From NCBI RefSeq assembly GCF_037975245.1, contig NC_092576.1, positions 9,565,501-9,629,500 on the forward strand: DNA of 64,000 bases, given 5' to 3'. Each line of letters starts with the position of its first letter. The stretch's first letter is position 1. A program made the position numbers and the translations under genes. The notes beneath the pieces are model-generated. The model worked only from the letters and a program-made list of their open reading frames with translations, was not told the DNA's origin and did not search any database. This DNA comes from Apostichopus japonicus. Taxonomy: Eukaryota > Echinodermata > Holothuroidea > Aspidochirotida > Stichopodidae. Below are positions 3,153-59,400 of the stretch, piece after piece.

Positions 3153-3302
3153 GTTGACCAAAGGACCATATTTGAATATCTAGCATATTTGGGGCCAATA
3201 CAGCATACCTTTAAACACATATAGAGTACTCTATATGTGTTTAAAGGTATGCTGTATTGGCCCCAAATATGCTAGATATTCAAATATGGTCATTTGGTCA
3301 AC
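3153..3302. repeat. 150-bp near-perfect palindrome, no spacer
   Basis: Two 75-bp arms meet at GAGT|ACTC (3227/3228) with one mismatch and no loop. The right arm continues into a dispersed repeat (3228-3490) that recurs at about 7030-7265. The palindrome is therefore a truncated copy joined head to head to a longer one. Long perfect palindromes are unstable, so this one is either young or an assembly fold-back. Confidence 0.9.
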
Positions 3303-3490
3303 TTCTTAGACTGTTTTTATTACAACCTTTGAGCAAAATTTCCTCACTGGGACATTCAGTCATCTTGTGTGTTCCTTAAAAAATGTCTGAGAACAATTTG
3401 TAGAGAAAAGATCTCCAGGAAATTACTTTCTAAAAACTTCTAGCAATTATTGAGTGCTATAATTTGGGGCCTATGCTGACTACCTTTTAA
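3228..3490 (+). repeat. Dispersed repeat B, copy 1
   Basis: It shares several diverged blocks, in the same order, with 7030-7265: a segment with CAAATATG and ATATGGTCA, then CCTCACTGGGACATTC, then AATGTCTGAGAA. I do not recognise the family, and no coding potential is visible. Confidence 0.7.
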
Positions 3491-3890: not shown

Positions 3891-4177
3891 GCGCGTAGCC
3901 AATGGGGGGGGGGGCGAAGGGGGCGACCGCCCCTCTTGAGCATATTTTTTGTTGTATGTTTTTATGATGTCGCTAGTAATTTCAAGCTTAGATGCAACTT
4001 ACAAGGCCTGGGAAGTGCAATTTCCAGCGATCTGGGAGGCATTTTCAGCCTATTGTACGCGTAGCGCCAACGTATGGTGGCGCTACGCTTACTATAGTTT
4101 TAAATGCAGAATCTACGGCTCTGATAGTTTGCCTACAGGTTCGCCCCTCCCTTGGCAAATTTCTGGCTATGCGCCTG
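3891..4177. mobile_element. Probable non-autonomous DNA element (GGCGCGTAGCC ends)
   Basis: The left end AGGCGCGTAGCCAA and right end TTCTGGCTATGCGCCT form imperfect inverted repeats. Between them lie a poly-G run and the GC-rich hairpin core in reverse orientation (about 4055-4095, CGTAGCGCCAACGTATGG). I found no clean target duplication, so the boundaries and superfamily are uncertain. Confidence 0.5.
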
Positions 4178-4930: not shown

Positions 4931-5594
4931 CAAGGGCGGCGGAACCGGGGGGGGGGCACAGGGGGCACGTGCCCCGCCCCACTTTTCCTCAGGTTAAAAA
5001 TGTGCCCTTTTTCTACATAAAAATTGAGGTGTCTCAAGTTAGCAAGAGGCCAGGGAACCAGAATGAACAATCGGGAAGGGCCGTTTCCGGCCATCTGAGG
5101 GGTTTGTAAAACCAAAAAGTTTTCTAGTACGCTCCGCGCCAACCGATGGTGGCGCTCCGCTCAGATAGTCGTGCATACAACTTTGCAAATCCTGGCTACA
5201 CCCCTGACTTTTAATGAATTTCTGTGGGTCAAACTCAAAGCTATTTCGAATGGGAAAAAAATCGATATGATATTAACAAGAAATAAACTCTAATTTGGAA
5301 GATTCGTACATTAGCAACTAGCATGGTTTCACCTCATTTTGTCTCAAAAGAAAACTTGTTCCTTGATTCCCAATTTGCACATTGTATATTGCAGTGCTAG
5401 TATGCATATTTTCCTTGAGGGAGGGGGGGGGGGGTGGGCGTTGATGTAGTGATTTGTATACGCAAATAAGGTAATACAATAAGAGTTATAAAGGGTACTA
5501 AATGTAAGGCTGCATCAGTCCAATCGAATTTCTGCAAAGTGCCCTTTGATATCGGTGCCCCCCCCCCAGATTAAAAGTGCTTCCGCCGCCCTTG
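4931..5594. mobile_element. Non-autonomous hAT-type element, 664 bp
   Basis: The ends CAAGGGCGGCGGAA and TTCCGCCGCCCTTG are inverted repeats. The flanking 8-bp duplication AGCTAGTC (4923-4930 and 5595-5602) is perfect. Poly-G lies just inside the left end and poly-C just inside the right end. The interior includes a GC-rich hairpin core at 5125-5165 and no transposase reading frame. Confidence 0.85.
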
Positions 5595-5813
5595 AGCTAG
5601 TCCCCCCCCCCCGCCCCATCCCAGGCGTTACTTGTACCTTGTAATTGAACTATGGTGACCCTATGGTTCATACATGTTGCACAGTCTATGTCTATAACAA
5701 TCACTAGCCTGAGTTTGTTATAAGTTCATATTTTTCTCATCAAGGTCCGTTGCTAGGATACGCTGGTAAGTTAGAACAAGGTTTCTTCATGCTTCCTAAC
5801 AATCCTGTGCGGG

Positions 5814-6010
5814 TGTGACAGGGAATAGTGTCCGGGCGTCTCACGGACACTATTCCACGGGAATTGTGTCCGTAGGACAACTTTCTCGGGGGGAATTGTG
5901 TCCGGCGGACAGTATTATCTGTCCAGACGGACACTATTAACTAGGAAAAAACGTCCGTGTGTGGTGATTTTCTGTCCGCGCGGACAGGATGAGAGAATAG
6001 CACGGATAAA
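5814..6010 (+). repeat. Left terminal region of the Ginger-type element, hairpin-rich
   Basis: It is dense in GTGTCCG and CGGACAC words. GGAATAGTGTCCG (5822-5834) pairs perfectly with 5844-5856 across a 9-nt loop. Shorter palindromes follow, including CTGTCCGCGCGGACAG near 5970. Repeated subterminal motifs often serve as transposase binding sites in DNA transposons; that role is inferred here. Confidence 0.65.
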
Positions 6011-6380
6011 TGTGTCCTACAAGCTCTTCTGTATGGAAACGTAGTGCAAAAACATCAGGACAGCAAGGCTTCTTTGGAATATGCCTTTTCATCTTAATTG
6101 CATTTCTTAATGGCAGGATTTATTGAGGAACTTTAGACCAATTTCGCTACATGATGAACGGCTGAAATATATGGTCATTAATGATTTCTTGCATGATACT
6201 ATTTGGACAGACACAAATGAATGGAAATATCAATTTAATTTAAAATTTATTGCAAATTTAATTCTCCTTCATGTTCTCTGCTGCATAAGATAAATACATT
6301 TCTAAAAAATGACAAAAGTGCTGCAAGACTCGTGCAACATCCTACGTCTATTGTGACATAGAACAACTGTATCTGTTTCT

Positions 6381-6626
6381 TTATTTTAGTACAAGCTGTT
6401 TCAAATACTTTGTTTTATAAAAATCATCCAATTTCCCTTCTACTTTTAATACTAATGCTTGACAACCATTGACAATAACAGATAGCCTCACATCTAGTAA
6501 CTTTTGAAATCTTGGGGATCTCAAGACAAAATGACATTCACATGGGAAAAAAAGGTTACATAAATCAAAGTAAACCATGCTTTGGCGTCCACAGTTGTAG
6601 CCTAGCAGTATTTGTTGGTCAGGCAA
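6381..6626 (-). pseudogene. Possible non-LTR retrotransposon C-terminal fragment
   Basis: A minus-strand frame contains ECHFVLRSPRFQKLLD-like text near its middle. This resembles the E-x-HF-x-L-x-CP-x-F-x-x-LR segment near the C-terminus of many LINE reverse transcriptases. The normal Cys is Ser here and no other domain is present. If genuine, it is a short decayed piece inside the Ginger-type element. A chance match cannot be excluded. Confidence 0.35.
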
Positions 6627-7029
6627 TCAATTAAAGGTAGACTATTGTTAATCCAATTATCGACGGGCTGTGAATGTCAACTATGGTGAAAATACTTGGG
6701 AATTCCTTTTCATGTGATATATTTTAAGATTGGGCAATGCCTAGCTGGTTGGAAATGGTACTTGGGAAGCAATATAAAATCATATGGTATAGGAGCAGAG
6801 GGTTTGTGTAGGGTGTTTTCGTGTGTTCATGACATGTCAACCATCGAATCATGATATATTGCCTGCACAGTTAGGCAGTGCATTATTCATTAGAAGGTAT
6901 TTCCAAACGAATATCTCACCATGCACAACTGGTATTGATAAACACCAAAAACGTTTGTTGCTACGATGTATTGTTAATGGGCATAAAGGCCTCTAAGCTA
7001 TATCAATTATTTTCAACAAAAATCAGCTG

Positions 7030-7265
7030 AAAGTTATGTTGCATTGGCTTCAAATATGCCAGATACTAAAATATGGTCACCTATGGTCAAAATTATTCAA
7101 CTGTTTTTGTACCACCTGTAGGAAATTTACCTCACTGGGACATTCTGTCCTTTTGCATGTTCTTTTAAAATGTCTGAGAAAAATTTGGAGATTATATAGA
7201 CCTCAAGGAAAGTACTTCTTGATGTCACAATACAACTTTGTGGCCTATACAGACTACCTTCAAAT
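7030..7265 (+). repeat. Dispersed repeat B, copy 2
   Basis: This is a diverged copy of 3228-3490, with blocks CTCACTGGGACATTC and AATGTCTGAGAA in the same order. It lies inside the Ginger-type element, so the family was active after that element inserted, or the element carried it. Confidence 0.65.
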
Positions 7266-7654
7266 GACATGCTGCTGGTCACACTAAGTATCAGGCTTAA
7301 CATAAATACTGGGAAAGGAGGCTGTGTGAGAACCAGTTCTACTACACTCAGATTGTTTAGTGTTAGTCAAAGTATCTCAATGACTATTGTTCAAATGTTG
7401 GAAAAGAAAAAAAATCAATTAGGGCTAATTTGGAAATGCAAGCTGAAGCCAGTAAAATCATATTTGTACACAATTCACACAACTTGGTATCTGTTAACAT
7501 TTCTCTTGCTTTTGTCTACATATTTGGCCCACCTTTTCCTTTGACATTAAATAAATATTCTTTGCACTAAAAGTTTGGTCTTGACACAGTCAACAGTATA
7601 ATCACCTGAATCCTTTACTGGGGAGCATCCAAGGCCAGTCAACACTGAAAATAA

Positions 7655-7738
7655 AAATACACATACATACACATACATACATATACATATATACACACAT
7701 ATACACACACACATACATATACACACATATATACAAAA
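7655..7738. repeat. ACAT/ACACAT microsatellite
   Basis: An imperfect run of ACATACAT, ATATAC and ACACAC lies about 85 bp downstream of the LINE stop codon on the minus strand. It may be the remnant tail of that LINE insertion. Confidence 0.8.
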
Positions 7739-7822
7739 CGTACAAGTGCAGCTGTCTACAATAAATTATCCAGATTACCATTTTGTAAATAAAATAGCAG
7801 CACAATAAATAAAACTGTAATA

Positions 7823-8378
7823 CTATCTATACACATTAATTCTGAATTTTGGTGTTATTGCTTTGTGTCTCAGATTATACCTAGTAGTTTCTCGAAGTAG
7901 AGAGTTAAGTTCGGTATGCAAAGAATGTCTGTCATTTCTCTGTATGCAATTTACACTTCTAATGAACTCATTTTTAGCAGCATTGTTTACAGTACTCATA
8001 AGAAAGTTAAAATCTATATTAAAAATTCTAGAACAATACTTTAAAAAAAAAAAAAATTCTCTTATTATCTTTAATTAGTAAAAAGTGATACCAAGCAGAA
8101 ACAGCATATATTAGGTGTGGTAAGATATTGGCAGTAAAAACTCTTTTGCTTACATCAACATGAAAATATGGAACTATATACGATAGAGTTGAGACTATGA
8201 AGTACACCCGTTTAAGTATTCTGCTTATATGACCAGTGAAACTTAGTTTGTCATCAATACAAACACCTAGATATACTGTATGATGAGTGCGTTCTACTTC
8301 TGCATCTTTAATTGAGATTTTAGTTAACTTACATGATAAAAGACCTTTTCTACGAAAACGCTTATTCAGTTGCAACAA
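7823..8378 (-). pseudogene. LINE (non-LTR) reverse transcriptase, 3' remnant
   Basis: The minus strand encodes a TVYLGVCIDDKLSFTGHI segment followed by LPHLIYAVSAWYHF. Both are typical of the thumb and post-RT region of LINE reverse transcriptases. A poly-T tract at the minus-strand position matching 8041-8055 breaks the frame. The text resumes in another frame with TRYNLRHKAITPKFRI and ends at a stop at 7823-7825. Catalytic RT motifs and the endonuclease are absent, so this is a 5'-truncated, inactive insertion. The clade is not assignable from this piece. Confidence 0.8.
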
Positions 8379-9973
8379 CTACATAATGCATCACAGATAA
8401 AGAAACTATATCCCAGTTGTTACTTGCCTTGATATACTTGAATGGCATATGAGGACAGCTGTCAAGTAGCATGTATGCATAAACCAGACTGTGGTTTCTA
8501 TGATCCAACATGAGTATCCTTTCATATGAATGGGACATACTGACACACTTGATCTTTAGTAATACAGCAAGAAGTGACAAACAGTATATTCACAATGACA
8601 GATGCTGACACAAATGACCACTGATAGCCTGCTTGTACTCACTCAATGTGATACATACTACAGTAAATATGAGATTTCTTCCAGCTTCCTCATCTTGAGA
8701 TATCAAGTTTTAAAGGTTTACAAAATTTGACCACTGTTAATCTCCACAATAACAAAGGCCTCTTTTAGCCATGTGGTATACTTACAGACTAAATATGATA
8801 TCTGTTCAGCTTCCTTTCTTGAACTTATAATTTTTACAAGGTTTTCACAACTTGAACCCTGTTTACCCTTTGACATCCACCTCAAAAATATAGGATATAA
8901 TCAATATGATTCACATACATGCCAAATCTTACATTTTCCAAGCTTCCCTTCTAGAGATAGCGTGTTTGAAGCCAGGTGTCATACCGCACACACAAGTATT
9001 AACGCATAGGTTTATTAAATCAGCAAACAAATTAAGCATTGATATTGAGATGACGCAATATGACAAATCATTTTTTTCTAACCCATACCGTCACGACTCT
9101 AAGTTTATGCTTAGAACTAACAATGAATGTATGCTATATCAAGTGAGCTGGCTTCCCTCATCTTGGAAAGATAATTGTTCTGCTTGTTTTAGCCAGTTTT
9201 CTGTTAATTAGTACCTATTCGTGTGACCAAAGCAAAGCATAGCAGAACAGAATTTAAAAAATTAGATGGTGAATGTAAAAATTCCATTTACCTGAAGAAA
9301 GACGAACTAACTGCCATTTACTGTCCTGGATGTGACACATCAGTATATAGATTACAACTACCAATAGAACAACTTAATTTCTACGTGTGGTAAAATATAT
9401 GCTTGTTATGTGAGACTTTTGTTAGAATTTTGTCACCTTAGAGTCCTTTGAACTTCACAATCAACAAAAACAATCCCAGGATTTACTTATACCATCATTC
9501 TGACTGGAGTTCTCTGGGAACATTGCTCTTGATTCAACCTTACAATGCCATTACTAAATGCATTATAAGATAATAGGAATACTAATTCTATTCAGTATAC
9601 TAATTGTGTGCACATTTTCCTCCTTGCCAGGGGGAGAAAAACAGACCCTTTGATATACATGGAGGGGGAGGAAGTGTGTGTGTGAGGGGGGGGGGGGGGG
9701 TTATGAATTGAATTGAAACCAATCTAGTGTGGTTTGAACAGAGGGAATGTGTGAATTAAATATTGCTTAATATAAGGACACTTATTGCCGGTTCCAAAAA
9801 GTGCTATCTGACGGCATTTATGCTTTGTTTTTCTTGTTGCTTGCTGTTTTTAATCTATCTTGCACATATAAACATACTTAAACTTTAGGGGTTTTTTTTT
9901 TTCTGGAATTGTCTATCAGTGGGGGTGGGGGGACAAACAATAACGATATGCATGAAAGAAAGAAACCTTTTAA
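8379..9973. other. No gene; interior of the Ginger-type element
   Basis: No exon is recognisable. A poly-G run lies near 9688-9700 (GTGTGTGAGGGG context). The stretch 8640-9010 contains text similar to dispersed sequence at 12600-13020. It would lie downstream of the transposase stop. Confidence 0.5.
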
Positions 9974-10494
9974 TCATAAATTATCAAGTTCTTGTCTTAA
10001 CCACTGGTTGTTATACTCAAACACCTGATTATCTCCAACCTCATCATATTCAGCTTGGATAGCCTCCCTTCCTATCCTGGTGAAATGCTCTGACCCTTGG
10101 CACCAACCTATACCTATACATAAAAGTTTAAAATTATTGACTGAATAGAGAAGTTAATAAGTAACCACATTCAAGCTAAAAAAATGCATGTTTACACCAC
10201 ATATCATATTGAAAAGATAATTGTGCATCAGGATCATTACTTTGGTAAGCTTTTGCGCAGTTGACTACAGGCTGCCTCAGCTTCTGTTTCGGTGCAACAT
10301 GTGACAAGGTGGTAGAGATGGTCCACAGCATGAGAGACAAGAACGTCATTGAGGTAATTCAGCCTGCAGAAAAAGACGCATGAATAGTAAGCATTGCTTC
10401 AAAGTTACAGAAATTAAGTAGAAAGTAAATATTACTGTGAAAACATGATTTCAGCAATCATTACGAATGGGTACTTCAAATTAATGTATGTTGC

Positions 10495-10935
10495 AGCATT
10501 CGGTAATAACAAGGTGAAGCATTCAGACTAGCAATATTGTTTATTGCCACAAATGCAGATCTGATCCTCCATGAGCATGCGAGCATTCAGACTGTAGCAA
10601 ATTGATCCCCCAATTGTGGGTCTGATCCACCGTGAGCATGTATGGAGTATATTCAGACTAGCATGTTGTTCGCCCTTGTGGGTCTGATCCTCCTTAACCA
10701 TGCAATAATTTATACTATAGGACGTTGATCACCCAAATTGTAGGGTCTGATCATCCTTGAGCATGCGAGAATGCAAACTATAGCAAGTTGATCACCTCAT
10801 TTGTGGGGTCTGCTTGATCCTCCTTAAGCATGCGATTATTCAGAGTATAGCAACTTGAATCCCCAAGTGTGGGATCTGATCCTCCTTGAGCATGCGAGCA
10901 TTCAGATATACAGTATGGCAAGTTGATAGCCTATT
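10495..10935. repeat. Degenerate minisatellite, about 60-66 bp unit, about 7 copies
   Basis: GAGCATGCGAG, GCATTCAGACT and GATCTGATCCTCC recur in order at roughly 60-66 bp spacing. The array lies in an intron of the transposase pseudogene. Confidence 0.8.
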
Positions 10936-11739
10936 GAAGTCTGTACGCATTCCTGTGTATTGTATCAAGGCCAAGCTTAGAGTGAGATCTGATCAAGTGT
11001 GACCTATGTGCAGCACTAAGGTCACGTCTCGACGTAAGTCAGTGTTAGATTCAAATTTTCTGGCAGGACGGGCCAACAGTTCAAGCACTCAATCACAGAA
11101 AGTAAAATTCATGACAAGGCAAGGCTTAGGGCGATAAACTTACAAACAATGATATGACCAGAAGGACTGGATCCCATTTTTCAATAAAAAGTTCCTTTAA
11201 ATGCAGTGCTTAACCATTGAAAGTATACATATCATTACTATATAGCACAATAAAAGTTTGCAACAAGTAGCGAAACATCTAAAAGCGTTTGGCCGAGCGA
11301 TGATGATAGGTAACAGGTAGAGCACCTTTATCATTAATATTAATCAATATTTGTTTCTGCTTGAATTTTGAGAGTTGCTTAAGCACTACAAAATTTTGCT
11401 TGTAACTGCCAATGTATACCACTTAGGTTGGTATCAGTAACTGCATGATTATGGAGTGCATATAATCCCACTTTAATGAAATATTTAACACTTACTGTAC
11501 TTCAAACTTTTTGAGTTTCTTCAATTGGTCATACAACTGCTTCTTGGAACTTGAAGAAAAACTGTTGCAAACAGATCTCTGTTGAATCAAAGCAAAGAAC
11601 ACAATCATAGCACACTGGAAACTTACTTAACCATGAATTGTAAAAATAGGCCTGGGGGGGGGAGTCTTAAAAAACAAATTTCCAGAGGACAAGAAATTCG
11701 GGCAAAAGTCCTGAAAAATTCGGGCAGCCTAAGAGGAGA

Positions 11740-11741
<2 letters not shown>

Positions 11742-11831
<90 letters not shown>

Positions 11832-11838
11832 GTATATA
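11742..11838. repeat. (TA)n microsatellite
   Basis: About 95 bp of nearly pure TA dinucleotides with a few TTA and AAA interruptions. The reading frame of alternating Ile and Tyr over it is an artefact. Confidence 0.95.
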
Positions 11839-12399
11839 AATATGCAGTAGCTTGCGCAAATCTTTTTCAAATTTTTGCCCGACAATTCATTGATTTTCTT
11901 TATTTAGCATCATGATGCCCGAATATTTCCGTGTAACACCACCGTAAGCACAGCTCACCTGGGCTACCACACTTTTTGCGCGATCAATTTTTTTTCTAAC
12001 TAGTCAACTGTATACCTGGACATCTCCGACATGAGTGTATATAAGAAACATTTTCTTTTTGATGGAATGGATGGTGGGGGGGGGGGGAGTGCCTACAAGC
12101 CTAGAAGTACAGGTTTATCATATTCTTTGTTACATTTTATACTGTTTTGTGAGACAAATTGCAGTCTCACCCGACACAGCGACATTATCCCGCCTACATG
12201 TCGTTGAACAATGTATGTTTTTCTGGAGGTAGCTGAGTACTGTGTTAAAATAATAAATACGGTAACTAAATATGAGCTTAAAAAATATACTGTCCTATTT
12301 TTCCTCTTCAAAGTGATGTAACCATTTTTTCTTCAACTAATTTGCCAAATTTTTGGGGAAGTGTCAATTTCTAAAATGTGAGATTATAAAATAAAGAAT

Positions 12400-12580
12400 G
12401 TTTATATGCAACTTGCAAGGCCTCAGATGTGCCGTTTCCGGCAATCCGAGAGGCTTTTTTTGCCAACAATTTTCTCGTACGCTACGCGCCAACCGATGGT
12501 GGCGCTCCGCTTGGATAGTGTCACAGGAACTTTCGGGCACAAAACTTTCTGCCCCCCGAATTAAAATGGTCCCGTACGCC
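12400..12580 (-). repeat. GC-rich hairpin family copy
   Basis: It contains CTACGCGCCAACCGATGG, then TGGCGCTCCGCTTGGATA, after a segment like GTGCCGTTTCCGGCAATC. The order matches that at 5080-5165. It sits in the intron between transposase exons 5 and 6, so it is a nested insertion. Confidence 0.65.
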
Positions 12581-12599
12581 TATGACCTCGGCCCACAAC

Positions 12600-13025
12600 A
12601 TTAGGCTTCTGTACTCAATGTGGTACAATTACATACCATATGCGCAATCGTTCCAAGCTTCTGAGATATTATGTTTAGGAAGGTGCGTTAGTGTAGGGAC
12701 AGGTTAGAGGGGAGTGAGGTAACTGTTTGGCATTTTTTGACTTCAAATGACCTTTATGACCTCCGACAAAATCAAACAGTTTCTTTTACTCAATGTTATG
12801 CACTATCTTACCAAGTACGAGATCTGCCCAAGCGTCCAATATTGAGATACCATGTTTACACAATTTCAGGTTTCACAATTTGACCCGAATGACCTTTGAC
12901 CTCAAACAATACAATACGCTTCTTGTACTCAACAATGTACTCTTTTGCACAAACTATGGGATCAATCTAAGCTTCGATTTTTACAATGTGGGCGGTACAA
13001 AGACACGCACACACACGCCAGCATG
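12600..13025. repeat. Dispersed repeat with TGACCTTTGACCT motif
   Basis: Three loosely repeated units combine a TACTCAATGT-like word, a GATACCATGTTTA-like word and a GACCTTTGACCTC-like word. Similar text occurs in SHOC2 intron 1 (54050-54200). One perfect DR1 direct repeat lies at 12890-12902. Confidence 0.55.
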
Positions 13026-16000
13026 AATAAATAGGTTACGATTATTATCAAAGCCAGGAAAGCTGCTCTTCAGAAGTTGAACATTAAATTGCAGAGTTTC
13101 AAACTGACATCACATAAAATTATCTTCTCAAAACTAAAACAAATGAAATTTAATTTCTGAAAACAATTGTCAGGAAACTGAAGTTTTCTTCTAATTAACT
13201 TATTCCCGTCTTTTTTATTGTTGGCAATAATGGTTAATTTGTTAGGCCATTAAGTCGAAACTGATTTATTGTGTGAAGACAGCTACAGCACTTTACCCTC
13301 ACATAAGCCAGCAAATACTCAGAACTGATTAAGTTGCTGATTATTTTTAAGGAAATTCTGGAGGAATTATGCCAATCCTCCTCCTCCCCCACCCCCCCCC
13401 CCCAAAAAAATACTGCAAAGAAATCTTACTTGTGCAAAATTCTTTAAGTAAAATTGAATTGAATTTCTTCTTCTGAGGAAGGCCTGTGGTACTGTTAATA
13501 AGTGTGTACAGTACTTTCTCATTCACAGCCTTCACTTCATACGGCCCAATTAGCCAAGAGTTTTCGAGCTTCCCTCCTCTTCGGGCATCCTTTCTAGCAT
13601 TCCATACGAGAACACTGGAACCAACTTCGAAGCTCTGAATAAAATAAAATCCAGCAGATATACGTAAACATCATAATACAATGCATATGTTGCCATTCAT
13701 TTAATTACAACTTCAATGTACAACATAGCATTATATAATTACCTTTTTTGGTGCCTATTATCCAAATTCTTTTTTTGCCGTTCTTGGGCTTTGCCAATAT
13801 TTTCTTTCACAACACCTTTGATTATGTCCCGCGACTGTGACATGAGTTGAAAAACCCTCTCCCGCTGTGCATCGCTGCAGTCTGTAGTAGGAGCTTCTGG
13901 TTGGACAATGGAGTCTTCAATGTCGACTGGTCGCAATGGCTCTCTGGATATATGAAGATAAATTAACATTCAATTATTCACAACACTTTCTTGACGAAGA
14001 ATAAATAAATATTTATATATTTTATTTTCACTATTAAGACCATTGAACCAGAAATTTGAGTCACATCACATACTCAAACCAGCACAAATATAAAACCCTT
14101 ATATATATTCTGTGCTGTTATAGGTCCAACTTGCATACCAGTCAATTATGATAAATATATAGTATATGAAAAACAAAACCAATGTCAGTGGCATTAATTG
14201 CATGTATCTTTTAAGTTAATGGGCATGCATTTACAGTTTAATGAATGTTCATATTTTGTACTTGCTGCAGAGTGTACCATATACAGGGTTAATATTTATT
14301 TGTTTAGATATTATAACTTAAATTGGGTTATTGATGGTCCTCTATTTAGCGTTTTTTCCCAGGACCTGGAATGTGTCAAATTAGATTTTATCGTACAGAG
14401 GACTGGTGTAGCTATGCAAGATTTGTCCAAACTCTCTTATCCCTGATTGTTTTTTCTCTGTATATGGCCTTAGCAAATGTAAATCTCTATTCAGCAATGG
14501 CAGGTTTAAATTATTACAAACCTTCCAAACATCACAGCAAAAGGTGAAAGACCTATTGAACCATGTCTGGCTGTATGGTACCCCATGAGAATTGAAGACA
14601 GCATTTCATCTCAGTCATGTTGGTTTTCATTGACAACCTTGATGAGTGACCTTTGCAGAGTTTGGTTGAATCTTTCATCAAGCCCATTGGTCTGTGGGTG
14701 GTAGCTAGAGGATTCTCTGTGGTCTACCCCTATCATGTCAAACAGGGACTTGTTCAGAGCATTAACAAATTCTCCTCTCTGGTCTGAGATGACAATTTTC
14801 ATGCACCCAAATCTAAATAAATGGAAACATTTAAATAACTATTGTTAAAGTATTGATTACGAGTAATGTAATGAACTACTGGCATCTGCAGAATGGCTAC
14901 ATGGTTTAATCAGGAAATCATTTCAGCACTGATTTAAAAAAAAAAGTAAGTTAAAAGCACTGACCATATCCCACTAACATTTCATTGACATTAACTTAAG
15001 AAACAACTTCTATAAATTCCTGTAACCATTTGGCCGCTTTCTGGGTCACAGTTAAAACAGTGCAAATGCAGGTCTGCATAACTAATTCCATGTAAAGTAG
15101 AAACAAAAGTAGATGGATATTTACCTGGCCATGGTTTCAAACAGAAAGTTTGCAACAGTTTTTGCTGTTTTGTTTCTGTACAGCAACAGCCTCTGGCCAT
15201 TTTGAAAAATAGTCACATAGGGTTTATATGATGTACTTATTTCCATTGATGGTCTCTGGAAGGGGTCCAATCATATCCACACCCATCTAAAAAAAGAAGT
15301 AAAATGGCATTCAGAACCATACACAATCTAATCATACGAACTGATGTTCAAGTGATTTATATCTGAGTTTTGTAAAATGCTAAACATTCAATTGTTTTTT
15401 TTATTTTTTATTGTAACTCACACTGGAAGACTCTGTTACCAATTTTTTTCTTCACTACCAAACCTATTAGTTACTGACTTGTCAAACCCAGCTGTTATAT
15501 GGAAGTCCAATGGGAAATCTCTGAAGTAAGATGCAAGTCACATACATTGATCTAGCTGACAACCTAGATGGTAATTGTCACTAGGGACTATCATAGGCCT
15601 GGTAACCATTTTCATCACCTTTGAATGTGGGGTGGGGGGGGAACAGATGTATAAGTACCTGGATGAGTGATTGATAGTTAGTCAGAAAATTGCCTTGGAA
15701 TCTGTCAGTGAGATGACAGGGTTACACCTAACTGATGTAGGAAGCATACATTGGTAGTATAGGTACCTATACTTTGGTATCTATATATTGTAAGCATTTA
15801 GAAATGTTACAAATTAATCTTTGAAGGGAATTTGCAGAATTTTTTATATTAATGATAGAAATTCACACTGTAGAGTTACAGTATGGAAGGAAAGACTTCT
15901 TGGTTATTAACCAAGTAGCAAATTTTACTTAAATAGATGTTGAAATAAGCATATGGGTTCATTGGGGATGAATTTTGGACAAAAGGCTATGGCTCTGTTG

Positions 16001-17202
16001 GTACTTTAGTTATGAACTGCATATGAATGTACGTACTTAGGACATTTTCTCGGATACTTCTTTATGACAACAATTCAACTACTGAACTCTGTTATGTTCA
16101 TGTGTCATTCTTGCTTCATATCACAATTCAGTTTTCTTTTCATTTTGAAATTCATATCAGATAATTATGAAGTCCAATGTAAAGGTTTTCCTGTTGCTTT
16201 AATTATACGCAGCTAAAAAAAAATATACCAAAATGTGTTCTTAGCGAAATTTGTGTTTATGGCTGCAGTACATGAAAATTCCCGACAGTACTGCGAGTCA
16301 TTAAGTCTACTGAATGTACCACCATCATGATCATCTTTAATATATGCTTAGTAAATTATAACTTTAAGAACAAATGAATGAGCTAGATCTTTCATTCTCT
16401 GGACAATCTCCACACATACTCCTTATACTCTTGCACTGGCCAACAAAGGGATGCAAACTTTAAGCATCGGTTGATAACTTGATATGCATATGGTGAATGA
16501 CTTTGCAGTTACAATCATGCAAACAAATATTGCTTTTAGATGACAAAAAACAAAGTGATTTAGTGATAACTGTGCTGCTTGTGAACAGTATTTTCGACCC
16601 AGGCCTAGCATTAATAAGCTGAACGCATAAGGTGGTCCATATGTATTCCATTAACATGTAAGGCCTATGAGCTAGGATAGGTATTTGAAAAAAAAAACAT
16701 GTTACACAACTTCCATTGCAGATTCCATCAAAATCAGGTGTACATGTGCCTCCTGCTGAAATGCAGATGAAAATAATACTTAGGTGGTGAAATTGTCACC
16801 ACTCGTGTCCTACAAGGACTCTTACAGAAATTGAAATGAACCTGATATTTCTATTGATTTAGCCACCTTCTCAGATCCCTTTCTTTCAAATTAGGGTCTT
16901 ATACCAAAATACTCCTATCATTTGGTCAAATAAGTTCATGATAACATGTGGGATAAAACGAAAGCAAATTGTTGTGCATTTTTATTTGCTCTTTTTTCAA
17001 TTGTTTCTCTCAACAACCAGCTATCCCCCTGAATAGAAATTTATTCACCCACCCTCAAATTTGTCAAAGCGATTACACTAGGCCTATATTAGTTTTTTAG
17101 GTCCATTCTGGTCACTATTCTAGCAATACTACAGTATATCACCAAGCAGTGTCTACATGTGATAATACATTGCAAATTTAATATAAATGATATAAACTTG
17201 GT

Positions 17203-17238
17203 CCATGGAGCTATAATCCCAGGTTTATAGCTCCATGG
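17203..17238. repeat. CCATGGAGCTATAA hairpin, copy 1
   Basis: Perfect 14-bp arms (17203-17216 and 17225-17238) flank an 8-nt spacer. The same arm sequence forms a tighter hairpin at 49889-49923, so this is a recurring palindromic element. Confidence 0.8.
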
Positions 17239-19257
17239 TTTAACCTGCACTAATTTAATTGCAACATTGTTTTGTGCATATATTAACAACCTTAATTACT
17301 GTGGAAGAATGTTTAATGAATATTCATACCATAACCATGTACATGTTTGCATAATTAAAATATCACCAGCAAAGAGGCCCATTAAACTTATTAAAAATTA
17401 TTAGCCAACACAGCTAACCTTCTGACAATGAAGTGATGGGCAGGTGGCCAACTGATTACCTATAGCATATATTCGACCTGCTGCAGTGTCTGTGCACATC
17501 CCGGCACCAATATATTAAAAAAATATGGGAAAACCTCTAAAAAGAAAGAGATAATAAAGTAACACTCATTAATTTAATTGATCCTCCAAATGGACAAGAC
17601 AGGGACCCCCCCCCCCTCTCCCTTGCTACCTTGTGTTTTAACTAGTAAGGGGACTAATCCCAGGACATATCTTTCAGAAAATCTGAAAAGTCCTATCCTG
17701 AAGATTTTTTTTTTTTAACCTAGCAATTTCAAACACATAATCATTATTGAAATTAAAAGCTTGTATACTCATGGTAGCATGGGTACACAATACACAGCTG
17801 ATATGTAACTGACAGCTGATCTGGGAGTTTTGGCAGCTACCAGAGTAACAAAAATTATACCAAGTAGGCTTTATTTCAGAGATTGGCAATCGGAGTGGCT
17901 TGAATTTGAATAAAGCAAATTATTTGCAAATAGGGTTAACTCTCGAAGTCCTACTCCTAGGCTACAGTAGGCTAGCCTATAGTAGCCTAATACTATTCGT
18001 GTCTTGCCGACTAATTATGCATCACGATATTCTCTAACACTAATAAAGTTTAGACTTTTCAGTTCTACTCTTAGGTGATTACAAATAATAAAATATACCT
18101 ATAATCTGCAAGGCCCAAATGGCCAATGCACTTAGTTCAAGTTATATGCATATCTATGGAATCATTTTCTTCAGTGGAAATAATTCCTAAAAGTTTTATA
18201 CAAATAAACAAATAATACACTTACCGCCAAACCCTTCTTGTAAGCTTTAATTTTGTGGGCTTTGGCCAAGGGCCTATCTTCGTTGCCATGTGGGCCGACG
18301 TAAACTAGATCGGCATCTCCCGTCAGTCTAAAACTCTTCGATCTTCCCCTTATCGATCTTTCTAGATTTATCGTAGACTTTTCAGGGTACAGTCCTGACG
18401 AAAGATATTTTTCAATGATAATGTAGGCCTACTCGTCATCGGTATCCAGGTCAGGAGAAGTCATCTTGTAATATCAGATCGGGCTAAGTAAGTTAACGGT
18501 CTCAACTCTTAATGCAATTACTGTGCGTGCATATATGCAGCTACTAAGAAATTTTGGGCCTGCGACATGTAACGACGTAGACGGCACATTCGGCTTACTT
18601 CACTGAGTAAACAGCAGTATACATTTTACAGTAGAATGCAAATACGCATGTCACACCTAGAACGTAGAGCGGGAGATTTCCACATTTCCCGCGTACTGAA
18701 TAAAATATATTGACTCTGACCAGGGAGTTTTTCCATAACAACTCCCTGCTCTGACCCCGGATTTGACCTCCATGCTCCGGATGGCGGGGAACTATCACCG
18801 CCGCGTATCGGTTAAAATACATTTACCTTCGACCTACATGGTTGATCTTTCTCCAACGTTTAGAAATTCCGACCTTCCAAACAACTACCCTAATGGTAGT
18901 AACGATTGATAAGCTGCAGAGTCAGACAGACATGACTAATTAGTTCGGAAGATAAGTTTAACATTCATTATGCAGCCTTCTGACAGTCGACGATCGAAAT
19001 AGAGCGGACAGCGTCCCTCTGGAGTGTAGTCTCCATGATAATAATAACATTTTGCCGCCTCTTCCCACAACAGTCGACACTCGAAGTATTAGTTATACTT
19101 TAACCGAGTTTTGAGGGTGCATGCTGACCGATATATAACATTGTCAACCTGGTCTTCGCTAGTAAATTACCTCCTTTTAAGTAATAAGGGAACGTAGATA
19201 GGGCCAGAAATGTTTGTCACTCAACAGAACCACGTTAAAGCTCTTTGAAGAGAACCC

Positions 19258-19381
19258 GGACACTTTCCACGGTGGCGTAGAAAGCAAGGGAAAGTGTCCC
19301 TGAGACACTATTCACGCAAATGAGACACTATTTCCTAGTAATAAGTGTCCTACGGACGCCCGGACACTCATTACTGCCACA
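19258..19381 (-). repeat. Right terminal region of the Ginger-type element
   Basis: It is rich in GGACAC and GTGTCC. GGACACTTTCC (19258-19268) pairs with 19289-19299. The outermost 27 nt (19355-19381) is the inverted counterpart of 5814-5840, and CGGG follows immediately. Confidence 0.65.
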
Positions 19382-19385
19382 CGGG

Positions 19386-25923: not shown

Positions 25924-30069
<4,146 letters not shown>

Positions 30070-40539: not shown

Positions 40540-40705
40540 TTTTTTCAATTTTGATGAAATGTGTGCAGAGAATAACGACAGAGTATGAGATGGTTTAGCA
40601 AGTCATACCACTCTACTGTAAGTTCCATTCAATCAACTATACTGTCCTGTATCTAGAGTTAAGGATAAGATATTTGAGATTTTACAACTATTAAACAGAT
40701 TTAAC
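40540..40705 (+). repeat. Left arm of a long inverted repeat pair
   Basis: It is the inverted counterpart of 42315-42490. Shared blocks are GACAGAGTATGAGATGGTT, CCACTCTACTGTA and AAGGATAAGATATTTGAGAT. The arms lie about 1.6 kb apart. Confidence 0.75.
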
Positions 40706-40803
40706 AAAATAGTTTTGCTCAATTCAGATTATAGTGTACAACTGTAACAATGTCTGCCACTGGAGTATTCAGATGGAATGTTTACAATTTCTACATACAT
40801 ACA

Positions 40804-41121
40804 CAGGGATGTGCCCAGGATTTCCTGAGTGCCGGGTATACTGATCGCCGTCCTGGGCGAGGGGTCTAAGGGGAGGGGGGTGTCCCCTCCCCTTTGAGAA
40901 TTTTTTTTCGATTTTTCAAGACCTGTGCTCAGATGCCAAATGCTGGCACTTGTGTACTGTAGCTTTTGAAGCACATACACAAGTACTACTGTAGTTTTGC
41001 TAACAATTTATATTTTTTAATATTTTTTTCATACGGGATTCATGAGTTTTAAGACAGTGCTGGGCGGTAATTTTTAGTGCTGGATGGGGCCGCCCAGTGC
41101 CGCCCAGCGTGGGCACATCCC
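40804..41121. mobile_element. hAT-like non-autonomous element, about 318 bp
   Basis: The left end CAGGGATGTGCCCA and the right end TGGGCACATCCC are inverted repeats. The flanks TACATACA and TACATACC match at 7 of 8 positions, consistent with an aged 8-bp duplication. It has GC-rich ends and no transposase. Confidence 0.6.
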
Positions 41122-42314
41122 TACATACCCAATAAGTGTGATAGCAGCTTCCCATGGATGCATTCTGAAAGTGCTGCACTGACAGCCACTGGGCTAATTA
41201 TTATGATGTTGAAACTGTTTTTCAAAACGTAAGGTGTGATCAGCAAAACTACTGTTTCGATGAAGGTTGATGCTTATTAAGCGATACTGTTTAACTGCAA
41301 CAATTCAGATATATCAGCAAAAATTTGTTCACGGTTTATTTAATTTTCAGGGAGAACATGAAACTACTATTTTAATTTCTCTTTGCCCTTGTTGATGATA
41401 TGTGTGAACCAATTGTGTTTTTACTGTACACTTACATTGTATACTGTATTTTGAACAATATTAATCGATCATATCCAGAAGGATTTATACTGTACGGTAA
41501 GTATTACTGTAGTACTATTAATACTATATTCTCACAATTTTTTTGGTTCCATATATGTGCAAAAGTTATACATTATTCACCTCTAAGCGTTAGAATGCTG
41601 TGTTTGATTGTCATGTTGTAACTTTTACCTACCTGTAGATAGGCTGTTAAATATAACAGGAAGTCCCTACCTTTTTATTTATAAGAGGTTTTTGGTCTTC
41701 AAACCTTGCTTAAACATTTATGAAGTGTGTGCGAGTATGGGTGTGGTGGAGAATTCCAGGTAATCTGAAAGCATCGTAAGAAATACTGTAAGTTCATGAT
41801 ATCTCATGTTTTTGTCTTCATATCGGAATACCATGTTTAGCTTACTGTATTGTGGATCACTGAGGATTACATGAAATGTTCTTCAAGACACAAATGTAAG
41901 GCAGTATAAAAGTACTTGATTCCCTAGACACTCTGCGAGCAACACTTGTCTAAGTACTACTGTATTTCAAAATTTCTGAAACAGTTTGCCGGTAGGCTTT
42001 TGGACCACGTACAGCAGTAAAGGTTTGTACTGTACATAGTCAGCTTGTATGCTTTTGATATATAATATTTAATAATATTTTCATAGTTATCTAAGGTGTA
42101 TTTCTGTATGGAATTACTTTTGTTAACTACTCTACTGTATGTTGTTTCCATAGGATGGGGGAGGGGGGGGAGAAATGTGTTGTTTGATACTTTTGAAGTA
42201 ATTGGACATCCTTCATTAAATCAAGTGAAGTGAAAGATTGAAACAAAAGAGGATTTTCCCAATTGGCAGACAATGTAACAGTTATAATCTGAGAGAGCAA
42301 ACATTTTTTTTATA

Positions 42315-42490
42315 TTTTAAAACTTTTTAATAGTTGTAAATTCCATCTCAAATATCTTATCCTTAATTTAAGATACAGTATATAGTTAATTGGATGGAAC
42401 CTACAGTAGAGTGGTCTGACAGAGTTTGCTCAACCATCTCATACTCTGTCAGTATTCTCTGCAAAATTTACATCAAAATGAAACTTTTTT
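42315..42490 (-). repeat. Right arm of a long inverted repeat pair
   Basis: This is the reverse-complement match to 40540-40705 with modest divergence. It could be one end of a roughly 2-kb foldback element or simply a second, inverted copy of a dispersed repeat. Confidence 0.75.
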
Positions 42491-42689
42491 TGTGGTTCCT
42501 TGTTATTTTTCTTATTTAATATGAACAAGTGTTTGAAATATTATGCACTTGTACAGTACATTGATATATAACAACTACAGTATGTTGTGAAGTACTCAAA
42601 ACTCTAGACACATTGATTGCACAGTACTGTATAACAAGGTACAAAATGTGCACATTTCGCATTACAGCACCTTACAAGTACAGTACATC

Positions 42690-44128
42690 ATGCAGTGCAC
42701 GGTACACATTTTGCAGTACAGTGCAGTACAGCACTACAAGTACAGTACATCGTGCAGTGCATGGTACACATTTTGCAGTACAGTGCAGTACAGCACTACA
42801 AGTACAGTACATCGTGCAGTGCACGGTACACATTTTGCATTACAGTGCAGTACAGCACTACAAGTACAATACATCGTGCAGTGCACGGTACACATTTTGC
42901 AGTGCAGTACAGCACTACAAGCACAATACTACGTGCAGTGCATTGTACTATTCACATTTTGCAGTACAGTGCAGTACAGCACTACAAGTACAGTACATCG
43001 TGCAGTGCACGGTACCAAATTTGCAGTACAGCACTGTACAAGTACAGAACATCGTGCAGTGCACGGTACCAGTTTTGCAGTACAGTGCAGTACAGCACTT
43101 CAAGTACAGTACAGCGTGCAGTGCATGGTACACATTTTGCAGTACAGTGCAGTACAGCACTACAAGTACAGCATAGCGTGCAGTGCACAGTACCAATTTT
43201 GCAGTTCAGCGCTGTACAAGTACAGGACATCTTGCAGTGCACGGTACACATTTTGCAGTACAGTACAGCACTACAAGTACAGTACATCGTGCAGTGCATG
43301 GTACACATTTTGCAGTGCAGTACAGCACTACAAGTACAATACTACGTGCAGTGCATTGTACTATTCACATTTTGCAGTACAGTGCAGTACAGCACTACAA
43401 GTACAGTACATCGTGCAGTGCACGGTACCAAATTTGCAGTACAGCACTGTACAAGTACAGAACATCGTGCATTGCACGGTACCAGTTTTGCAGTACAGTG
43501 CAGTACAGCACTTCAGGTACAGTACAGCATGCAGTGCATGGTACACATTTTGCAGTACAGTGCAGTACAGCACTACAAGTACAGCACAGCGTGCAGTGCA
43601 CAGTACCAATTTTGCAGTTTAGCGCTGTACAAGTACAGTACAGTACATCGTGCAGTGCACGGTACACATTTTGCAGTACAGTGCAGTACAGCACTACAAA
43701 TACAGTACATCGTGCAGTGCATGGTACACATTTTGCAGTGCAGTACAGCACTACAAGTACAATACTACGTGCAGTGCATTGTACTATTCACATTTTGCAG
43801 TACAGTGCAGTACAGCACTACAAGTACAGTACATCGTGCAGTGCACGGTACCAAATTTGCAATATAGCACTGTACAAGTACAGAACATCGTGCAGTGCAC
43901 GGTACCAGTTTTGCAGTACAGTGCAGTACAGCACTTCAAGTACAGTACAGCATGCAGTGCATGGTACACATTTTGCAGTACAGTGCAGTACAGCACTACA
44001 AGTACAGCACAGCGTGCAGTGCACAGTACCAATTTTGCAGTTCAGCGCTGTACAAGTACAGTACAGTACATCGTGCAGTGCACGGTACACATTTTGCAGT
44101 ACTATATTGTACAGGTACAGTACAACAA
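42690..44128. repeat. GTAC-rich satellite, about 60-bp unit with higher-order repeats
   Basis: The basic unit (about 60-62 bp) combines CATTTTGCAGTACAGTGCAG, TACAGCACTACAAGTACA and TCGTGCAGTGCACGGTAC. Variants recur as a block of seven units. The GTGCATTGTACTATTCACAT variant appears near 42937, 43350 and 43775, giving a higher-order period of about 413-423 bp, roughly three times. All three plus frames stay open for 300-390 codons and the minus frames also partly. Nothing protein-like is encoded. Confidence 0.95.
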
Positions 44129-56400: not shown

Positions 56401-59400
56401 TTAGCTGACAACTGATGTCACATTAGTCACTAATGTCGAGATCTCACAACCAACCAGTGGACCTATGTTTATATTTTATGGAAGCTTTAGGGTGACCTCT
56501 AATTTATTAATTCCATTCACACACCTGATGGTGAAGCCCGGTGTGTGTTACGGTTGGCTTTGGAATGTTACATTATTTTGCTTCCAGTTTAATTAATTGA
56601 CAAAGTTCTTTTGTTTATCATTTGCTTATTTACAGTTTTGCTGGTCTAGCTTTTTTTTTACGTTACAGTAGCTTTGGTGTGACATGATTATTTCCTACCA
56701 GTATTGGCAACTGTTGCAGCTGGTGGCCTTCTAACATGATTTACATATAGTTATAAACATATAGTTATAAACCCATTATAAACTGGTCTAAGTTTGATAT
56801 ATGTTATGGTGGCTTTGGTGTAGCTTGGTGTATATTACGGTAGCTTTGAAGTGACATACTTATGACTTCTCTTTCAGCTCACTCAACTGGTGGAACTTTA
56901 TCTATATTGCAATCGACTGACCAACCTTCCAGCAGAAATTGGTCACCTTAGCAACCTAGAAATGCTTGCCCTAAGTGAGAACTCCCTGACAGACCTACCT
57001 ACGGAATTGGGCCAACTCAAACTGATCAAAGTTCTTGATCTCAGACACAATAAACTAAAGGAGGTGAGATATCACTTAAATAAATAATAATAGCTAATGA
57101 CTAATAACTAACGAGATAGCTAGATATCTAATTAATAATTAAAACTGGATGATTAAATGTAACAAAACTGTAATAACACTTACTAGAATTACAACTATTC
57201 AGCAGATTTGAGAAACTTGAAAGGAATAATAGTAATCGTTTTTTTTTTTCTTTTTTGAATTAGAAATTATATAAACCACTTCTGCTTCGACGAGATCAGA
57301 ATTTTTCGAGTATTGCAAGTGTTAAATTGAGAATCAAACACCATTTTTTGAAAAGCAAAAAAAAATAATTGGCCACATCATGCATAAAGAGATGAACAAA
57401 TTTTATTAAAAATGAAGTCATTTTTGCTAGTAGCTGTTCAACATTGGATGTGAAGCAGCTCATGAAACAGAAGACTGTGCATTGTGTTATGCAATAACTG
57501 AGAACAATAGCATACAGTGTGTAGGGAATAAGTTTGGTTTTTGTGTAGCAGTTGTTGAGTGCTCTGAATGTTGTCTCATATCAAATACTCTTATATAAAA
57601 TAATGTCTCATATGTTGCATATAAAATAATGTCTCATATAAAATAATGTCTCATATAAAATACAGTTCCTGCTTTAAAAAAAAAAAAAAACTTATATAAA
57701 TCTTTACACTTGTACAGCAATTTTTGCCCATTTTTGCAAAGCATATTGATATGTGACAATTAGTTAAATGATTCCCATCTATGTGTAGACATTGGGACAT
57801 ATATACTCGACTCATGCGGAGCAGTGACAATTCTCATAATATATCCATGGAAGGCAATACGTTTCATTTGTTATCTTTCTTAACACTGGTTGAAAAAAAA
57901 CAAAACATGAAATTTGTGGTCAATCACATGACATATAAGTTACAAACAGTTGCACACCTTCAGACCCTGCTCCTCATCTCCCCTCCTCCCCCACCCCCCA
58001 GTTCTCATCAGTCAATCAATAAATCAATTCATTTAGTTATATGGTCAAATATCAAAAGTACAAGCAATATTTCATTGGTGGCTAGATACAAGAATAATTT
58101 CTCCAGATGCTTATTGCAATTGTTGCTAAAAGTAAAATACTCTGTTTCCCAAATGCCACCCCCCCCCCCCACTCCGCCCTGTCCCTCTCCTTTTCATCAT
58201 ACACACTAATGATCAGCCGCTGGCTGTCCTTTTCTCCACTTCATCCTCAGATAGTACATTTTGAGGGTGATTTTATCCTCTACTCAAATCCTACTTTCCC
58301 ATCACTCTAAATAAAACAGCCTGTTGTGCTGTATATCAAAGAAAATATGGATAATATTGATTTTTTTTTTTAATTTTCTTTTTTTCCTGTTATGACAGAT
58401 ACCTGAAGTAGTTTACAAGTTGAATTCCCTAACAACCCTATACTTGAGGTTCAACAGAATAACGGTGGTTAAAGAAGATATTGAAAGCTTATCAGTGAGT
58501 ACCATTCTTTTACTTGAGAATCTATCAGTGAGTACCATTCTTGTACTTGAGAACTTTCAATGAGTACCATTCTTGTACTTGGGAACTTATCAGTGAGTAC
58601 CATTCTTGTACTTGAGTACTCATCAGTGAGTTCCATTCTTGTACTTGAGAACTTTCAATGAGTACCATTCTTGTACTTGGGAACTTATCAGTGAGTACCA
58701 TTCTTGTACTTGAGAACTTATTAGTGAGTACCATTCTTGTACTTGAGAACTTTCAATGAGTACCATTCTTGTACTTGGGAACTTATCAGTGAGTACCATT
58801 CTTGTACTTGAGAACTTATTAGTGAGTACCATTCTTGTACTTGAGAACTTTCAGTGAGTACCATTCTTGTACTTGAGAACTTATTAGTGAGTACCATCTT
58901 GTACTTGAGAAGTTATTAGTGAGTACCATTCTTGTACTTGAGAACTTATTAGTGAGTACCATTCTTGTACTTGAGAACTTTCAGTGAGTACCATTCTTGT
59001 ACTTGAGAACTTATTAGTGAGTACCATCTTGTACTTGAGAACTTATTAGTGAGTACCATTCTTGTACTTGAGAACTTATTAGTGAGTACCATTCTTGTAC
59101 TTGAGATCTTTCAGTGAGTACCATTCTTGTACTTGAGATCTTTCATTGAGTACCATTCTTGTACTTGAGAACTTTCAGTGAGTATGAAAGCTTTGCAATA
59201 TGAAGGGTAACTAAGAATGACAATTCATCAAGGGACGTTAAGAATTATCAGTGAGTACCATTGTTGACATTTAAAAAGTGGTCAGTGAGTACTAGTGTTG
59301 TGGTATTTCAAATTAATCAGTGCATACCAGTCTAAAGAATTTATTAGTGAGTACCAATAGGAGGGTGTCGTGGTCAAATGGCTAAAGTTAACGGACTTGC

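Follow-up and report, generated by a model that had tools for sequence, protein, structure and literature searches.

Positions 5814 to 19381 of the window (the whole 64,000-nucleotide stretch of Apostichopus japonicus DNA analysed here) probably hold one old cut-and-paste DNA transposon of the Ginger1 type, 13.6 kb long, a reading to which we give a probability of roughly 85%. It is most likely a decayed element that has been swollen by later insertions. A first-pass annotation had proposed a Ginger-type element rather than an LTR retrotransposon, and this is supported here: the ends, the duplication length, and the coding content agree. More exactly, the placement can be narrowed to Ginger1 by its GPY motif and by what reads by eye as a YPYY-like motif; both kinds of motif are absent from Ginger2 in the sections of Bao, Kapitonov and Jurka (2010, PMC2836005) drawn on here. 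The assignment comes with departures in the letters of the duplication, in length, and in a zinc finger and a C-terminal domain that went undetected.

Ends and flanking duplication

The left end, TGTGACAGGGAATAGTGTCCGGGCGTC (5814-5840), and the right end, TGTGGCAGTAATGAGTGTCCGGGCGTC (19381-19355, given as the reverse complement), are identical in inverted orientation at 22 of 27 positions. Both read TGTGR...CA, with TGTGA at the left and TGTGG at the right, and CGGG stands on either side (5810-5813 and 19382-19385). When the two 200-nt ends are aligned locally with gaps, the match spans about 58 bp and scores 42. The features at the two ends are as follows.

5810..5813, unstranded: left target-site duplication, CGGG
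5814..5870, plus strand: left terminal inverted repeat with TGTGA start, about 58 bp with gaps, 22/27 against the right end
5821..5939, unstranded: subterminal short repeats by the left end, GTGTCCG / GACACTATT motifs
19257..19367, unstranded: subterminal short repeats by the right end, GTGTCCG / GACACTATT motifs
19324..19381, minus strand: right terminal inverted repeat, ending ...CCACA
19382..19385, unstranded: right target-site duplication, CGGG

Within the window, the exact motifs GTGTCCG and GACACTATT are confined to the vicinity of the two element ends, and a search allowing up to 7 mismatches found no further copy of the 27-nt ends there. The first-pass annotation had described this inverted 27-nt match, its TGTG start, and its CGGG flanks; the coordinates proved exact, and a recount again gave 22/27. 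It had also called the element “complete-ended,” which is true of the ends and not of the interior, where the gene is broken, parts were not found, and repeats have come to lie.

The transposase gene

The minus strand between the ends carries a Gypsy-integrase-like transposase gene as five exon-like pieces in the correct order.

18225..18464, minus strand: exon piece 1, with an ATG, an in-frame stop, a YP...F...Y (YPYY-like) motif, and then a GT donor
15125..15286, minus strand: exon piece 2, with the first D of the triad (VDMIGPLPE), an in-frame stop, and a frame break
14522..14812, minus strand: exon piece 3, with the second D and the E, 35 residues between them, and one in-frame stop
13743..13943, minus strand: exon piece 4, between the catalytic core and the GPY part
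13430..13634, minus strand: exon piece 5, with the GPY motif (WLIGPYEV) and then a GT donor

The catalytic layout is thus D...D-35-E, divided between pieces 2 and 3. The YP...F...Y of piece 1 was read as YPYY-like by eye. An AG precedes each of pieces 2-5 and a GT follows all five, the splice points being our reading of the sequence, and these signals imply four introns between the pieces. A fifth would follow from use of the donor behind piece 5, and the count would rise further if the missing zinc finger was encoded by a separate exon. Piece 4 runs into piece 5 in frame only with the acceptor shifted by two bases; otherwise their junction is another frame break. Because of three in-frame stops (in pieces 1, 2, and 3, that of piece 1 coming soon after the ATG) and the frame break in piece 2, the transposase gene is dead, and the element cannot now make its own enzyme.

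Homology searches were made with single and joined pieces. Exon piece 3 by itself matched Pfam rve_3 at 2.3e-4, below the curated cut-off score, and the joined pieces matched rve at 1.1e-6 and rve_3 at 4.5e-5, both likewise below their curated cut-off scores. In a PDB search with joined pieces 2-5, Ty3 Gag-Pol ranked first among 55 sequences (E=2.4e-10); it aligned over residues 3-266 of the 287 in the query, with the GPY of piece 5 opposite the GPF of Ty3 integrase. Several other Pfam matches fell below cut-off scores and were taken as chance (PTEN_C2 0.082, MA3 0.098, IMS_C 0.19, TcdB_N 0.12, ACP 0.13, Poxvirus_B22R 0.012, and CR_prot_dom_plant 4.2). Possible further exons downstream, near 11500-11580, 10235-10365, and 9970-10115, showed no homology and are not counted.

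Relatives in other collections

Among viral contigs, none of 10 candidate stretches was confirmed with part of exon piece 3 as the query, and none of 7 with joined pieces 2-5. Among genome contigs, 4 of 89 candidate stretches were confirmed, here called L001 to L004. In a search of these four loci only, the integrase of L002 showed 30% identity over 253 residues (E=2e-36) and that of L001 34% over 167 residues (E=4e-28). By tblastn, the integrase pieces of both match exon pieces 2 and 3, and not 1, 4, or 5. Pieces 4 and 5 were recognised from the PDB alignment together with comparison with the L001 and L002 integrases, and piece 1 from its position and motif.

All four loci were rejected as Ginger elements, with gene labels assigned by eye: L001 and L003 have reverse transcriptase and integrase in one frame, the integrase of L002 opens a 965-aa frame that continues into something else, and L004 resembles a bacterial insertion-sequence transposase. 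The contigs of L001, L002, and L003 are filed under bacterial metagenome-assembled genomes (MAGs) and carry retroelement-like integrase genes, two of them with reverse transcriptase by eye; these are probably eukaryotic contamination.

Domains looked for in the element

In Pfam scans of all six frames of the element, no reverse transcriptase, RNase H, zinc finger, OTU, or Ulp1 domain came up, nor any other Polinton-type gene, and no PHD domain was detected in it. Such scans have limited sensitivity for broken, intron-split genes; the integrase itself appeared only as rve_3, at 3.7e-4. An H2C2 zinc finger was also absent from minus-strand Pfam and pattern scans, which an intron-split domain could escape, and the zinc-finger pieces of L001-L003 gave a best tblastn match in the element of E=0.38. 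The finger would be expected in the 2.9-kb gap that separates exon piece 1 from piece 2, which may have lost it; an OTU or Ulp1 domain may similarly have decayed or be split by an intron. As the element is a dead copy, absent domains are weak evidence.

The first-pass annotation had also held that there are no LTRs and no LTR-type reverse transcriptase. This was borne out by the six-frame Pfam scans, by tblastn of the L001 and L003 reverse-transcriptase pieces against the window (best E=0.3), and by inspection for long direct repeats around the gene, of which none was seen. Its description of the transposase as the sole large coding remnant nearly holds. The exception is a minus-strand remnant at about 7826-8378, which we take to be a LINE-like reverse-transcriptase tail (recognised by eye; Pfam did not find it).

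Interior repeats and element length

The following repeats lie inside the element.

7030..7217, plus strand: dispersed repeat sharing 78% identity with 3243-3428, which lies outside the element
7655..8378, minus strand: LINE-tail-like coding remnant (about 7826-8378) adjoining a CATA-rich microsatellite (about 7655-7735)
10560..10904, unstranded: minisatellite, period 63, 5.5 copies
11743-11843: AT array
12388..12522, unstranded: dispersed repeat with relatives to the left of the element at 473-566, 1650-1742, 1748-1858, 2817-2874, 3988-4090, and 5080-5169

The stretch 7655..8378 is likely an insertion that followed the arrival of the element. These internal repeats explain some of the length beyond published sizes, and introns (one gap is 2.9 kb) would account for more of the 13.6 kb.

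Other repeats in the window

Several further repeats were seen outside the element. A near-perfect 150-bp palindrome occupies 3153-3302; both it and its flank are related to the repeat at 7030-7217 within the element. At 40543-40759 and 42264-42483 lie imperfect inverted repeats, each some 220 bp long, with about 1.5 kb between them, and the whole (40543-42483) is perhaps another, non-autonomous element. Tandem arrays are found at 28498-29511 (34-bp units, 30 copies) and 58481-59184 (65/98-bp units), and a satellite-like array with units of 62, 121, 178, and 423 bp extends over 42654-44124, where several long open frames overlap it.

Preferred and rival explanations

How readily might such ends arise by chance? 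Against the score of 42 for the two ends, the best among up to 2,000 randomly chosen pairs of 200-nt segments was 34 (drawn from about 20000-64000, with pairs less than 400 bp apart dropped), and the best in 1,000 shuffles of the ends themselves was 27. Of 200,000 27-nt pairs drawn at random across the window, one reached at least 22 matches (it had 24). A count of every TG...CA pair in the window 100-30,000 bp apart (n=7,635,401) is more sobering: 79 have at least 20/27 matches and 17 at least 22/27, so that 16 other pairs equal or exceed our ends, several of them in the 3153-3302 palindrome and other repeats. None of the 16 has a duplication. Pairs with at least 16 matches are flanked by a 4-bp duplication in 117 of 16,667 cases (0.7%), and at this background rate about 0.1 chance pair with a duplication is expected among the 17. 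The element call therefore rests on ends, duplication, and gene jointly. That two unrelated ends were merely paired by chance is nevertheless barely credible to us: the 5814/19381 pair is alone among the 79 in having a 4-bp duplication, the same short motifs stand by both of its ends and nowhere else in the window, and an integrase-type gene lies between them.

We also judge it improbable that the ends come from a different element, cut-and-paste or non-autonomous, with the integrase-like gene as a separate, older fragment trapped between them, be it a decayed retroelement integrase or a GIN-like host gene. The gene does occupy only part of the 13.6 kb, other repeats lie inside, and the intron-rich layout recalls Ginger1-derived host genes, which have six to eight introns (PMC2836005). 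Yet the ends and the 4-bp GC-rich duplication are those published for carriers of just such an enzyme (PMC2836005), and the gene was found with neither reverse transcriptase nor RNase H, nor with long direct repeats on its flanks. It is apparently intron-bearing, whereas in L001 and L003 a single open frame contains both reverse transcriptase and integrase (as labelled by eye). Nor is the gene a working host gene, since it is broken. An integrase-like core is common to Ginger2/Tdd, Polinton, IS3EU/GingerRoot, and IS481EU elements, any of which would be a very improbable identification here. As described in the sections of PMC2836005 used, Ginger2 is without GPY/F and YPYY and targets the AT-rich RTATAY; in those of PMC10045372, Polinton, IS3EU, and GingerRoot make 6-bp duplications (for IS3EU, the usual length), and TA ends mark IS3EU and, mostly, GingerRoot. 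The Pfam scans described above also speak against a Polinton.

Within Ginger1, the element might represent a distinct long, intron-rich branch that was large already when mobile, had a Gin-like gene layout, and targeted CGGG/CCCG, not CCGG; we regard this as doubtful, if conceivable.

On the preferred reading, that of one old Ginger1-type element, an intact transposase would have bound the subterminal repeats and processed the CA ends before joining these to the target at a 4-bp stagger, the repair of which would have left the CGGG duplication. Decay of the gene and the entry of other repeats after insertion would have brought the element to its present 13.6 kb.

Ginger1 comprises small families that bear on the kinship of Gypsy integrases and DNA transposases and on the origin of the intron-rich Gin genes (PMC2836005). 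An intron count equal to or above that of the richest member of the 2010 table would bear on whether Gin genes inherited transposon introns. One dead copy alone adds little, and the element described here appears to be a modest further member of an established type of transposon, not the first of a new type.

Comparison with known systems

The closest comparison is with Ginger1 as described in the sections of PMC2836005 consulted. Ginger1 has TGTNR ends and terminal inverted repeats of about 40-270 bp, with which TGTGA/TGTGG and the gapped repeat of about 58 bp agree. Its duplications are of 4 bp; among 112 Hydra elements, 75% are CCGG and 24% CCGT/ACGG, leaving about 1% for others. Ours is GC-rich and matches in length, and differs in letters, as CGGG, known here from one copy, is one letter away from CCGG. 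The published protein has YPYY, H2C2, DDE, and GPY/F parts, with OTU or Ulp1 in all but one (Ginger1-1_BF). Our element shares the Gypsy-integrase-like DDE core, GPY, and introns, and may share YPYY, to judge by the YP...F...Y read by eye in piece 1, whereas its gene is broken and no zinc finger or OTU/Ulp1 domain was detected. Listed Ginger1 members have 0-4 introns and lengths of 2,649-7,091 bp, against at least four introns, perhaps more, and 13.6 kb here.

The host genes Gin-1, Gin-2, and Imagin (PMC2836005, PMC12863088) have a many-exon Ginger1-like gene in common with the element; they are conserved host genes, whereas the gene of the element is broken and lies between terminal inverted repeats. 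The integrase of Gypsy/Ty3 LTR retrotransposons is similar in the sequence of its core and GPY part, but our element has introns and inverted ends, and no LTRs, reverse transcriptase, or RNase H were found in it. From Ginger2/Tdd, as characterised in those sections of PMC2836005, it differs in having CGGG as its target and in the presence of GPY.
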